Positions 5,696-36,538 of a stretch of DNA of 40,578 nt are shown here, one piece after another. The DNA is from an uncultured Flammeovirgaceae bacterium (GTDB lineage: Bacteria; Bacteroidota; Bacteroidia; Cytophagales; MED-G16). Position 1 is the first letter of the stretch. Every line of letters starts with the position of its first letter. The notes beneath the pieces were generated by a model. The model did no database searches and had not been told where the DNA came from. It saw nothing but the letters and a program-made list of their open reading frames with translations. The position numbers and the translations under genes were made by a program. Location: positions 1 through 40,578 of the forward strand of contig CAJXDN010000011.1 in NCBI GenBank assembly GCA_913052485.1. Direction: 5' to 3'.

Positions 5696-6853
5696 ATGAA
5701 TATTACGAAAGTTGTATCAGAAAAAGACAGAAAAGACTTCATAGATATAGGCTGCTCAATTTATAAAGGTGATAAAAATTGGATACGACCTTTAGATAAA
5801 GATATAAATTTTGTTTTCGATAAAAAGACAAATAAAGCATTTCGAAAAGGGGAGGTTGAAAGGTGGATCTTGAAGGATAATTCTAGGATAATAGGGAGGA
5901 TTGCTGCTTTTTATTCTAAAAAAAACTCAAAAGAAAAAAATAAAGTTGGTGGATGTGGATTCTTTGAGTGCATCGATAACCAAACCGCCGCAAGAACTTT
6001 ATTTGATACTGCAAGAAAATGGCTTGAGAAGAAGGGTTATGATTCGATGGATGGACCTATAAATTTTGGTGAAAGAGATAAATGGTGGGGATGCCTGGTA
6101 GAAGGTTTTGATATTGATCCAAACTATTTGCAAAATTATGGAAAACCTTACTACAAAAATTTATTTGAAGACTATGGATTTCAACTCCTTTTCAGACAGC
6201 TTACATTTTTAAAAAAAGTAAGGTCACCATTATCAGATAGATTAAGTGAGAGAGCAGAAAAAGCCTTAAAAGATCCAAACTATAATTTTAAGACACTAGA
6301 AAAGAAAAATATTGATAAGTATATTAAGGATTTTACAAAAATATATAATGAAGCGTGGTCAAAATATCCAGGTGTATCAAAACTCGAGCTATCTCAAGCT
6401 AGACTTCTTTTCTCACAATTAAAACCGATTCTTGATGAAAAAATTCTATGGTTTGCATACTATAATAATGACCCTATTGGATTTTTTATAAGTATCCCTG
6501 AAATGAATCAAATTTTCAAACATGTAAATGGCAAATTAGATTTGATAGGAAAAATAAAAACATTCTATCATCTAAAAATAAAAAAGTCATGTAAGAAAAT
6601 GGTAGGGCTTGTATTTGGAATCGTACCAAAACATCAGGGTAAAGGAGTTGACGGTGCGCTCATTATGGCAAGCCGAGAGACAATCCAGGAAAAACTTGGA
6701 TATGAAGACCTTGAATTAAACTGGATACCTGACTTTAATAAGAGTATGATCAAGGTAGCTGAACAGACACAAGTAGAGCTTGGAAAAGTTCACCACACGT
6801 ACAGATTTAATTTTGACAGGTCCATCCCAGTAGAGAGGATAACAAAAAAATAA
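5696..6853 (+). CDS. YghO-like GNAT-fold protein, function unknown
   Basis: A 385-residue soluble protein with a GNAT-like layout. The N-terminal part (ERWILKDNSRIIGRIAAFY, then GGCGFFECIDNQTAARTLFDTARKWL) resembles half of an acetyltransferase fold. The middle has MDGPINFGERDKWWGCLVEGF. The C-terminal part carries KMVGLVFGIVPKHQGKGVDGALI, where the Q-G-K-G-V-D stretch resembles the acetyl-CoA loop (Q/RxxGxG/A). These features match the YghO/N-acetyltransferase-like family found across Proteobacteria and Bacteroidota. The acceptor is unknown. The gene is divergent from oadG, and its stop (TAA 6851-6853) abuts the atpG stop on the other strand with no intervening base. Confidence 0.75.
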   Translation: MNITKVVSEKDRKDFIDIGCSIYKGDKNWIRPLDKDINFVFDKKTNKAFRKGEVERWILKDNSRIIGRIAAFYSKKNSKEKNKVGGCGFFECIDNQTAARTLFDTARKWLEKKGYDSMDGPINFGERDKWWGCLVEGFDIDPNYLQNYGKPYYKNLFEDYGFQLLFRQLTFLKKVRSPLSDRLSERAEKALKDPNYNFKTLEKKNIDKYIKDFTKIYNEAWSKYPGVSKLELSQARLLFSQLKPILDEKILWFAYYNNDPIGFFISIPEMNQIFKHVNGKLDLIGKIKTFYHLKIKKSCKKMVGLVFGIVPKHQGKGVDGALIMASRETIQEKLGYEDLELNWIPDFNKSMIKVAEQTQVELGKVHHTYRFNFDRSIPVERITKK

Positions 6854-33584: not shown

Positions 33585-34150
33585 TGGATCCTGTTTTTAA
33601 TAAATTTTTCTCTAGAATAGATAGCTTCAACCCGAATCAAAAAAGGAAAAAAAGGTTAGAAAATATAGCTTCAGTTGTTAATGAAAATTTAAATAAGACA
33701 AGATCAATTGTTTTTTTATGTACTCATAATTCGAGAAGAAGTCAACTATGTGAAGTTTGGGGAAAGGTTTTTGCTAAAATTTATAGAAAGAAAATAAATA
33801 TAAGTTCAGCTGGGACATTTAAAACTGAAGTTCATAACCAAGTATATGAGTCTATAATTAAATGTGGTCTAGTAGTTAACGATAAGAAAGAAATTTTTTT
33901 TGATAAAAAAAAGTTTAAACTGAATTCAAAAACTATAGATAGTATCACAATGAAAAATTTCATAGCGGTTATGACCTGTTCTGATGCAGAAAAATCGTGC
34001 CCACACGATCCAAGATCTATAAGAAATATAAAGATGTTTTTTGATGATCCTAAAATATATGATGAAACAAATAAGGTGTCTAGAGAATATCTGAAGACAA
34101 CTACTTACATAGCAGAGGAACTAAACTATATATTTAAAAATATTAATTAA
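33584..34150 (+). CDS. Thioredoxin-type arsenate reductase / low-molecular-weight phosphatase-like protein
   Basis: About 188 residues. The phosphate-binding loop is C46-THNSR-R52-S in FLCTHNSRRSQLCEVW, the form seen in Bacteroidota ArsC/LMW-PTP-like proteins. VMTCSDAEKSCPHDP supplies two more Cys (C132, C139) spaced by seven, as Cys82 and Cys89 of S. aureus ArsC. MFFDDPK holds the Asp-Pro general-acid loop. This redox triad favours arsenate reductase over a plain tyrosine phosphatase. An ATG at 33554 would add ten residues; 33584 fits homologue N-termini better. No arsR, arsB or acr3 gene is nearby, so the true substrate is uncertain. Its end overlaps the DUF4199 gene by 8 nt. Confidence 0.82.
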   Translation: MDPVFNKFFSRIDSFNPNQKRKKRLENIASVVNENLNKTRSIVFLCTHNSRRSQLCEVWGKVFAKIYRKKINISSAGTFKTEVHNQVYESIIKCGLVVNDKKEIFFDKKKFKLNSKTIDSITMKNFIAVMTCSDAEKSCPHDPRSIRNIKMFFDDPKIYDETNKVSREYLKTTTYIAEELNYIFKNIN

Positions 34151-34697
34151 TTCTATCAGATACAGGCTCGTTTTTCTTTACGAAAATAGAAGTAATTGCC
34201 GCAACAATAAAAATAAATAATAGACCCCACGGGGTCGCTTTTATTATCCCCATTGGGGAAGTGTTTTCATCAATTGACTTTTCAATCTCAGGTATTGAGG
34301 CATCAATTGTCTCCTGAGGAGCACCCCAGTTCTCCATCATAGATATCGTATTTTCGACGGTAAGCTGTTTAATTAATTCAGGTAAAGTTGGGTCAATAAC
34401 ATTGTATAATAAAATATTGAAAGATGCACCAACGATATAGGAAACTGTTAAAACTAGAAATGTAAATTTTAATGCGTTTTTGTAGGACATAAATCCGCCA
34501 ATTGTATTTCTAAAGCTGACACCAATGTATATTGTTAACCCAATGCTAATAGCTAATGATATAAGACCATACCACCACTCAACCAACGTCTCAACATTCA
34601 CAACATAAGTCACCATTAAAATTAGAATTGAAACTCCCGCAACAATAAGCCCGCCTTTTAAAACTTCTTCGTTGTAATTAATATTATTTGCATCCAT
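34143..34697 (-). CDS. DUF4199 membrane protein
   Basis: About 184 residues with four predicted helices: GGLIVAGVSILILMVTYVV, WYGLISLAISIGLTIYIGVSF, ALKFTFLVLTVSYIVGASFNILLY and GLLFIFIVAAITSIFV. A periplasmic or cytoplasmic loop with LPELIKQLTVENTISMMENWGAP precedes the last. This layout, with FRNTIGGFMSYKNALK between helices 2 and 3, is that of DUF4199, common in Bacteroidota and without assigned function. The frame is open to 34808, but the ATG at 34697 starts the family-like sequence and avoids overlap with the divergent DUF3050 gene. Confidence 0.82.
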   Translation of the reverse strand: MDANNINYNEEVLKGGLIVAGVSILILMVTYVVNVETLVEWWYGLISLAISIGLTIYIGVSFRNTIGGFMSYKNALKFTFLVLTVSYIVGASFNILLYNVIDPTLPELIKQLTVENTISMMENWGAPQETIDASIPEIEKSIDENTSPMGIIKATPWGLLFIFIVAAITSIFVKKNEPVSDRIN

Positions 34698-34748
34698 ATT
34701 TGCTTTTTTTTTAAACAATATAGTTGAATAAACGTAAGAAAAAAAGAC

Positions 34749-35528
34749 ATGAAAATACAAAGTATAGTTGAACATATTGAAACATCCCAAACTGAACTTG
34801 TTGATCATAACATTTACTCCAAAATATTAACTGTTGATGATTTAAGGGTGTTCATGCAAAATCATATATATGCAGTGTGGGATTTTATGTCTCTACTAAA
34901 AGGACTTCAGGTGAATCTAACCTGTGTAAAAAATCCATGGGTCCCATCAGAGAATACTCAGGCAGCAAGATTTATCAACGAAATAGTTCTTGAGGAGGAA
35001 ACTGATGAAATTAGAGGGGGGAAAGTAGTTAGCCATTTTGAACTATATAAAGCCGCTATGGAACAAGTAGGAGCTGACACCTCTGGTATCAATGAGTTTG
35101 TTAAAAAAGTAAAAGACTCAGATAATTACAGAGATTGTATAAATAGATATAATTTAAATGATAACATCAAAGAGTTTTTAAATTTTACATTTGATGTTAT
35201 TGAGACAAATGAAATTCATAAGATTGCTGCAGCATTCACTTTCGGTAGAGAAAACGTAATTCCAGATATGTTCATAGAGATTGTTAAAGGGCTAAATGAA
35301 AATAACAGTAACATAGCAAGTGAATTCGTATATTATCTGGAGAGACATATTGAGTTAGATGGTGATGATCACGGTCCCATCGCATTAAAAATGATAGAGA
35401 ATTTATGTGGAAACGATCAAAAAAAATGGGAAGAGGTAAAAAATATTTCAAAAAAATCAATAGAAATGAGAATTAAGCTTTGGAGTCATATAACCTCTGA
35501 AATAGAAAATGAAAATAGAAATAATTAA
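34749..35528 (+). CDS. DUF3050 protein, heme-oxygenase-like fold, candidate non-heme iron enzyme
   Basis: A 259-residue, all-helical protein of the DUF3050 family. FMQNHIYAVWDFMSLLKGLQ (H39), FINEIVLEEETDE (E78-E83), SHFELYKAAM (H96), ETNEIHKIAAAFTFGRE (E152-E168) and LERHIELDGDDHGPIAL (H200, D204, H208) are the conserved stretches. Their His/Glu/Asp spacing resembles heme-oxygenase-like di-iron proteins, where ligands come from several helices. A metal-dependent oxidase or oxygenase is therefore plausible, but no reaction is known to me for this family. The last 20 nt overlap the pirin gene, so the two are likely expressed together. Confidence 0.82.
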   Translation: MKIQSIVEHIETSQTELVDHNIYSKILTVDDLRVFMQNHIYAVWDFMSLLKGLQVNLTCVKNPWVPSENTQAARFINEIVLEEETDEIRGGKVVSHFELYKAAMEQVGADTSGINEFVKKVKDSDNYRDCINRYNLNDNIKEFLNFTFDVIETNEIHKIAAAFTFGRENVIPDMFIEIVKGLNENNSNIASEFVYYLERHIELDGDDHGPIALKMIENLCGNDQKKWEEVKNISKKSIEMRIKLWSHITSEIENENRNN

Positions 35529-36267
35529 AAAAGAACATCAGGCAGATGGACACTTTAATGGTGGTGAAATCTTAGAAAAAAAGCCAATCGGATTCCCACA
35601 AGATGGCGGAAAGACTAAACCTTACTCCAATATATTTTATTGGGCACATGCTTGGACTCCTGGTTCAAAAAGTACAATTGGTCTTCATCCCCACCAGGGA
35701 TTTGAAATATGCAGCTTTATTTTAGAAGGTTCAATAAATCATTTTGATACAAAACAGGAAAAATGGATTTCTTTAAAGAAAGGGGACGTACAGATAATAA
35801 GAGCTGGAAGCGGAATCTCACATGCTGAGGAACTTAACGATAAATCCGAAATATTTCAGATATGGTTTGATCCTAATATTCAACTATCAATAAATGAAGA
35901 GGCATCATATGATGACTATAAATCTGATGAATTCTCGGTAACTGAGAGAGAAGGAATCAAAGAAAAAAAAATTGCTGGAGAAGGGTCTCCTATGAAGATT
36001 TTCTCAGAGGGAATTGAAATTAATTCTTATGATGTATCCATCGGCAGTGAACTGAATTTAGAACTTGAGGAGGATTATGTATATTCTCTCTTTATCTTAG
36101 AAGGAACTACCAAAATTGAAGGTCAGTTGGTTAAGAAAGGAGATTTTGTGAAGGTTTCTAATTATAAGTCTTTGTGCGTGATCGCAGAATCAAAAACAAA
36201 AATATTTAATATTAAAAGTCCACTAAGACCTAGCTATTCTACGTACATTGAAAGATTTATGAACTAG
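35509..36267 (+). CDS. Pirin-family bicupin protein
   Basis: A 252-residue protein with two cupin halves. The N-terminal half has the pirin iron site: HPHQGFEI gives the first two His, and SGISHAEE gives the third His and a Glu (the H-x-H...H-x-E pattern). Also typical are HAWTPGSKSTIGLHPHQGFE and GDVQIIRAGSGISHAE. Pirins bind Fe and some act as quercetin 2,3-dioxygenases, while others are redox-sensing co-regulators. The ATG lies inside the end of the DUF3050 gene (20-nt overlap). The gene ends 1 nt before the opposite-strand small gene. Confidence 0.92.
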   Translation: MKIEIIKKEHQADGHFNGGEILEKKPIGFPQDGGKTKPYSNIFYWAHAWTPGSKSTIGLHPHQGFEICSFILEGSINHFDTKQEKWISLKKGDVQIIRAGSGISHAEELNDKSEIFQIWFDPNIQLSINEEASYDDYKSDEFSVTEREGIKEKKIAGEGSPMKIFSEGIEINSYDVSIGSELNLELEEDYVYSLFILEGTTKIEGQLVKKGDFVKVSNYKSLCVIAESKTKIFNIKSPLRPSYSTYIERFMN

Positions 36268-36268
36268 C

Positions 36269-36538
36269 CTACTTCCCGTCTTCTATCTTCTTCCTTCTAG
36301 CCATTTCTTCGACCTCTTTATCTATCTCATCTACTTGCTTAAAAATGATTCTTAATTTACCTTCAAACTCTATTAACTTTTTTCTACTCCTATCATCTAA
36401 ATCGTCTGACTTATATAATTTCATTAAGTTATCTGCAGCTTTTGTAAGCTTCTCTTTACTCGAGTCGACATAATCATCAAAAACCTTAAAAATATCTTTG
36501 TCGTCAGCGTCATTAAATTGAAAACCTATTTTATTCAT
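36269..36538 (-). CDS. Small helical hypothetical protein
   Basis: An 89-residue, highly charged protein with no signal peptide. Sequence such as DDYVDSSKEKLTKAADNLMKLY and RIIFKQVDEIDKEVEEMARRKK suggests two long helices or a coiled coil. I do not recognise the family. Coding is supported by the tight fit between the pirin stop (1 nt away) and the divergent peptidase promoter region, and by balanced codon use. An 8-bp-arm inverted repeat starts 5 nt upstream of its ATG. Confidence 0.65.
   Translation of the reverse strand: MNKIGFQFNDADDKDIFKVFDDYVDSSKEKLTKAADNLMKLYKSDDLDDRSRKKLIEFEGKLRIIFKQVDEIDKEVEEMARRKKIEDGK

Follow-up and report, generated by a model that had tools for sequence, protein, structure and literature searches.

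The window analysed here is a stretch of 40,578 nucleotides of contig DNA from an uncultured Flammeovirgaceae bacterium (Bacteroidota; Cytophagales). On its plus strand a 259-aa protein of the Pfam family DUF3050 (PF11251) is encoded at positions 34749-35528 and is directly followed by a divergent pirin (a bicupin of 252 aa, 35509-36267), assigned from its open reading frame (ORF) and PF02678. The two frames share 20 bases (35509-35528), as had been described in an earlier note on this DNA made from the sequence alone. Both flanking genes lie on the minus strand: a DUF4199 protein (34143-34808), found by Pfam and locus comparison, which diverges from the DUF3050 gene and is also kept in the sister genus, and a small protein of 89 aa with no Pfam match above the cut-off (36269-36538), found by locus comparison, whose orthologue lies directly after DUF3050 in the sister-genus genome G012. 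Among ORFs picked mechanically, 5 of the 20 same-strand neighbour pairs within the window overlap, the DUF3050-pirin pair counted among them, so the frame overlap is ordinary for this window. The longest DUF4199 ORF also overlaps DUF3050, head to head; this second overlap is doubtful because the orthologues that were read are only 184-191 aa long, and the true DUF4199 start probably lies further downstream, with no real overlap.

The DUF3050 protein matches PF11251 over the whole profile (positions 1-233 of 233; 331.3 bits against a cut-off of 22.2, E 4.6e-99) and, in hmmscan, also Haem_oxygenas_2 PF14518 (31.7 bits against a cut-off of 28.9, E 1.6e-07), although the PF14518 genome search missed the window's own genome. 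NCBIfam gave no match for either the DUF3050 protein or the pirin. Among 395 sampled genomes of the window's phylum, 61 were found to carry DUF3050, and no DUF3050 match was found in phage records. An AlphaFold2 model of the window protein, computed from 45 aligned proteins, has a mean pLDDT of 92.5, and its best Foldseek match is PDB entry 9vwb, "HamA, a Heme-Oxygenase-Like Enzyme" (E 1.3e-14), a DUF3050 domain-containing protein released in November 2025; a literature search gave no paper naming 9VWB. The model superimposes on 9vwb over 244 residues with a rmsd of 2.4 and a Z score of 29.3 (VIA-align), and the next structural neighbours are CADD (Z 20.6), HrmI (20.3), UndA (20.1) and FlcD (18.8). 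The model therefore supports a heme-oxygenase-like all-helical fold, which the earlier note had read from the sequence, and the comparison with di-iron heme-oxygenase-like proteins that it had called for brings out CADD, HrmI, UndA and FlcD at Z 18.8-20.6. In a sequence-profile search with the DUF3050 protein, HamA alone was matched among the solved HDOs. TenA and PqqC chains are mostly not known to hold a metal pair, and chains so labelled also reach Z 16-19 against the model (VIA-align), so that the predicted fold by itself is insufficient as proof of a metal site.

The case for such a site comes from residue conservation. Across 45 aligned DUF3050 proteins, taken from 66 non-redundant ones, H39, E78, E83, E84, D86, H96, E168, H200, D204 and H208 are invariant (45/45). 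A second alignment of 11 rows, which overlaps the 45-row set and includes HamA and four other pseudomonadotan proteins, keeps all of these invariant with the exception of E78, which is replaced by D or Q in two rows. H39 is conserved, yet it maps to none of the known metal-ligand positions. Of the ligands first proposed for this protein, then, E78 varies and H39 has no counterpart, and the likely set of putative dimetal ligands is E83 (or E84), H96, E168, H200, D204 and H208. This mapping was made from one weak profile alignment (four proteins), a model published in 2015 and the fold comparison, and it uses the CADD ligand numbering, for which a search of PMC11965152 gave no entry. In the profile alignment (hhalign; probability 33%, E 4e-4), for which the template was a set of four CADD-type or Haem_oxygenas_2 sequences, E83, H96, E168, H200 and D204 pair with the CADD-type E, H, E, H and D, and H208 is one residue out of register because DUF3050 proteins carry H-x3-D-x3-H. 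One of the four template sequences matches 4-aminobenzoate synthase 9pj4 (E 2e-51) and CADD 1rcw (E 5e-44). The third motif of the window protein, H200-x3-D204-x3-H208, is thus one residue longer than the H-x3-D-x2-H of CADD-type proteins and SznF, and the same longer spacing is found in HamA, the solved member of the family. The distance from the first Glu to the His also differs, with 5-6 more residues in DUF3050 than in CADD-type proteins and an E-to-H ligand spacing of 12-13 as compared to 10 in SznF (SznF numbering as given in PMC11705231). The 2015 paper modelled DUF3050 on CADD and predicted a di-iron heme-oxygenase-like site with six ligands spaced E-12-H-72-E and H-4-D-4-H (PMC4520260), which fits E84, H96 and E168, and H200, D204 and H208 of the window protein. 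The suggestion of a di-iron site in the earlier note is in keeping with the way the conserved His and carboxylate residues map onto HDO ligands; it is probably right and is not new, a di-iron prediction having been in print since 2015 according to PMC4520260.

The pirin scores 53.2 bits with PF02678 (cut-off 26.1, E 3.5e-14), and its C-terminal domain stays below the Pfam cut-offs (Pirin_C_2, 22.2 against 22.9 bits; Pirin_C, 14.4 against 27). It shares the N-terminal cupin and the H-x-H...H-x-E motif with YhhW/quercetinase and other pirins (2p17, 6uts, 1tq5) and differs from them in its low score, 53-55 bits against 80-126 for most pirins among the matches listed. The four iron-site residues H60, H62, H105 and E107, already recognised as intact in the earlier note, are invariant in 13 of 13 aligned rows, two of which (L002 and L090) apparently come from one genome, and the pirins of this family are 54-76% identical to that of the window. 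With the iron site intact and the sequence apparently constrained, the pirin is probably a working protein.

Within the window's genus the neighbourhood is stable. DUF3050 was found in 11 of 12 genomes, and in all 11 the pirin lies directly downstream on the same strand; the frames that were read mostly overlap, by 20, 8, 4 or 1 bases, with a gap of 73 bases in G004. The G004 DUF3050 ORF (L136:4623-5312) is short at the C-terminus (229 aa, profile positions 1-212), through either an error in the sequence or decay of the gene, and is followed by an intact pirin. The pirin frame of G007 (L092) has its first standard start codon far inside, and the open frame scores over its full length. G001, the remaining genome of the genus, gave neither a DUF3050 nor a pirin match at 79% completeness. 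The surrounding block from uvrA to a thymidine-kinase-like gene is kept across the genus loci that were read, so that the adjacency of DUF3050 and pirin may be plain synteny. In the sister genus, the block of G012 runs DUF4199, DUF3050, small protein and DPPIV-type peptidase without a pirin, and no pirin match was found anywhere in this genome (89% complete). The G012 locus also has an additional 754-aa ORF between DUF4199 and a phosphatase-like gene (L133:5884-8148), which is missing from the window. In two further genomes, G013 and G014, a pirin of this type (about 56% identity) sits among different genes on short contigs, and neither genome gave a match to DUF3050 (92% and 61% complete, respectively).

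Outside the genus the pairing was not seen. A six-frame search of 127 DUF3050 loci, with two pirins of the window's genus as queries, found a genus-type pirin in 8, all from that genus, two of the positive loci (L002 and L090) having identical scores and apparently representing the same genome. With a genus pirin as query, 13 distinct sequences of solved pirins are recovered (E <=0.01), YhhW and human pirin among them, and ordinary pirins should therefore have shown up in these loci. The loci L082-L100 and L106-L132 reach about 1.5 kb in either direction, and at some others the contig stops short; a pirin further away could have been missed at such loci. In the genome search with PF02678, which covered 80 of the 85 intended genomes (the DUF3050-bearing G228, G259, G275, G376 and G426 were left out), a pirin turned up in at least 74 of the 80, and its presence as such says little; at least 61 of the 66 DUF3050-bearing genomes outside the genus encode a pirin, as do 7 of 7 further genomes reached through the loci. 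Compared by eye, no pirin lies within 10 kb of DUF3050 in the 66 outside genomes among the matches listed, and the nearest same-contig pair outside the genus is about 17 kb apart (G255), again among the matches listed. The survey across Bacteroidota that had been proposed thus found no recurrent DUF3050-pirin neighbourhood outside the genus as far as it was carried. The joint module put forward on the strength of the overlap, the pirin being adjacent in the window's genus only among the contexts read, is unlikely, and a general two-part system is probably not what the two genes represent.

The partners of DUF3050 elsewhere change with the genus (neighbour names were assigned by Pfam on one representative per BLAST cluster). 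In Flavobacterium-type loci a gene of an acyl-CoA dehydrogenase cluster lies directly upstream (30/100 loci); at L021, L024, L048, L079 and others, a methyltransferase and RimM often stand further upstream. In Maribacter/Muricauda-type loci the gene directly upstream belongs to a ferrochelatase cluster (11/100) and a MatE transporter lies downstream; at L005, L009, L010, L020, L074 and others, DUF3050 (match at about position 6001) directly follows, or overlaps, the ferrochelatase-type gene. Other Bacteroidota show, by genus, TrpA with a PLP enzyme, a class II tRNA synthetase or an M24 peptidase. No common pathway was found among the operon partners across Bacteroidota; DUF3050 acts as a gene in its own right that joins various operons, the pirin being its companion locally. 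At one locus (L151:6142-8559, G198), a divergent DUF3050 domain is fused C-terminally to a 2Fe-2S ferredoxin/radical SAM/SPASM protein (806 aa in total) and a fatty-acid desaturase gene adjoins it; this fusion may point the way to an HDO that modifies peptides or metabolites.

We propose that the DUF3050 protein is a stand-alone dimetal oxidase or oxygenase of the HDO type and that the pirin is a separate protein, a shared reaction being unlikely (probability about 0.75), a reading built on family membership, fold, ligand conservation and the genus-limited neighbourhood. Two metal ions, probably Fe/Fe, would be held inside the helical bundle by three His and three carboxylates, namely E83 (or E84), H96, E168, H200, D204 and H208. 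The reduced metal pair would bind O2 to give a peroxo species, which would oxidise a small molecule; amino acids, amines and carboxylic acids are the likeliest substrates. A search of the literature found no substrate for any DUF3050 member, and to our knowledge none has been established. The pirin would be a mononuclear-iron bicupin that, in this genus, took up a place after DUF3050 and probably shares its transcript. The dimetal O2 chemistry of HDO-type enzymes is described in a 2026 review (PMC13108848), and the solved HamA structure together with the conserved ligand set makes the DUF3050 family directly testable as HDOs.

The strongest competitor, to which we give a small but real chance, is a two-enzyme module in which DUF3050 would oxidise (e.g., N-hydroxylate) a substrate and the pirin would complete or rearrange the product, as in SznF, which joins an HDO domain and a C-terminal cupin in one chain (PMC13108848). 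The constant order and strand of the pair in the 11 DUF3050-bearing genomes of the genus, with frames mostly overlapping, and the invariance of both metal sites are consistent with this idea, as is the joint lack of matches in G001, but that genome is 79% complete. A separate DUF3050-cupin overlap also speaks for it: in Burkholderia cenocepacia the DUF3050 gene hamA overlaps the cupin gene hamB by 4 bases (L101:9995-11163), and PMC5878181 states an overlap for strain H111 too. HamB is a 129-aa single cupin and not a pirin, with Cupin_2 and Cupin_7 just under their cut-offs, and according to PMC5878181 hamB is dispensable for valdiazen, which weakens the parallel. The conserved gene block of the genus allows plain synteny as the cause of adjacency, G012 retains DUF3050 and its flanks with no pirin found, G013 and G014 carry the pirin type elsewhere with no DUF3050 match, and no pairing was seen outside the genus among the loci and genomes searched; taken together these points turn us away from the module. 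A narrower form of it, drawn by analogy and in our view unlikely, is a split HDO-cupin enzyme in this genus, in which the dimetal protein would oxidise an amino-acid-like substrate at N or C and the pirin iron would finish the reaction. If true, the genus would have a counterpart of SznF made of two proteins, and an overlap of DUF3050 and cupin genes would have arisen a second time, apart from hamA-hamB. A functional pairing with the pirin would matter for one small-genome genus, for which the sister genome without a pirin offers a ready natural comparison.

A true heme oxygenase or heme-linked enzyme is improbable as well. The fold does resemble that of HmuO (Z 15.5), and H20, just past the first helix and invariant in 45/45 proteins, occupies the position of the HmuO proximal His; a mutant named H20C is among the Foldseek matches. 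The ferrochelatase-type gene directly upstream in 11/100 loci points the same way, but this neighbourhood is confined to one group of genera (Maribacter/Muricauda type). HmuO ranks far under HamA, CADD and HrmI as a structural neighbour, H20 pairs with the histidine in L-x-H-P-F of CADD-type proteins and so is not heme-specific, and the invariance of the six dimetal positions argues against a heme site. A role for the pirin in regulating DUF3050 activity or expression, as a sensor of redox state or iron, would suit its conserved iron site and the iron-dependent, redox-sensitive regulation described for Bacteroides fragilis pirins in PMC11304471, but is improbable for a protein never seen adjoining DUF3050 outside the genus in the loci and genomes searched and for which G012 gave no match.

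For the stand-alone HDO reading, the closest known relative is HamA (9vwb; homologues MgoB and PvfA), which belongs to the same Pfam family, is 37% identical to the window protein and has identical proposed metal ligands. Compared by eye, the 9vwb sequence shown does not differ from that encoded by B. cenocepacia hamA in L101. The ham cluster, which includes hamA, makes fragin and the signal valdiazen (PMC5878181, PMC11659414), and PMC11659414 equates PvfA with HamA; the accounts in PMC5878181, PMC11659414 and PMC11705231 leave the exact HamA step unproven and call the diazeniumdiolate-forming enzymes elusive. MgoB of the mgo operon matches DUF3050, and its disruption is reported to lower, and not to abolish, mangotoxin (PMC3298696). 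A midpoint-rooted tree of 50 proteins joins HamA to those of Burkholderia glumae, Robbsia and Thiodictyon (100/98). The window protein and the other 44 rows of the first alignment form a separate group (97/92) in which L004 is labelled Pseudomonadota, and a Mesorhizobium DUF3050 stands next to this 45-row group (100/98). The tree tool flagged two branches as long and, for their letter composition, all five plasmid rows from Pseudomonadota. With this reserve, the window protein falls outside the HamA clade, and HamA's role should not be copied to it. A search for AurF (PF11583) in the window's genome and 11 related ones gave no match at E 0.001 (0/12, one of the 12 being at least 90% complete). 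With no AurF match and DUF3050 in a different clade, we reject a pathway of the ham type for the window's genome.

Within the HamA clade other gene contexts are seen. On a B. glumae plasmid (L102:7998-12381) DUF3050 is followed by a HalD-type halogenase, an SDR and an AMP-binding protein, and a Robbsia plasmid (L105:5938-10346) has the same gene order, with a "CoF synthetase" or AMP-binding gene; the HalD-type assignment was tested by Pfam in L102. Judged from their gene content, these loci represent an uncharacterised natural-product cluster that joins HDO-like and halogenase genes. We infer from the ham and halogenase contexts that amino-acid-like substrates would suit the DUF3050 family.

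Beyond the family, the window protein has the helical bundle in common with CADD/4-aminobenzoate synthase, UndA, HrmI and FlcD, and the ligand order E/H/E/H/D/H in common with the HDO superfamily including SznF, which was not among the structural matches listed; HDO chains are about 11-16% identical to it. Proteins with HDO-like domains also occur in other settings, such as an Acinetobacter protein that protects against oxidative stress according to PMC13232832. In SznF the HDO and the cupin form one polypeptide, whereas at the locus described here the DUF3050 protein and the pirin are encoded by two separate ORFs.
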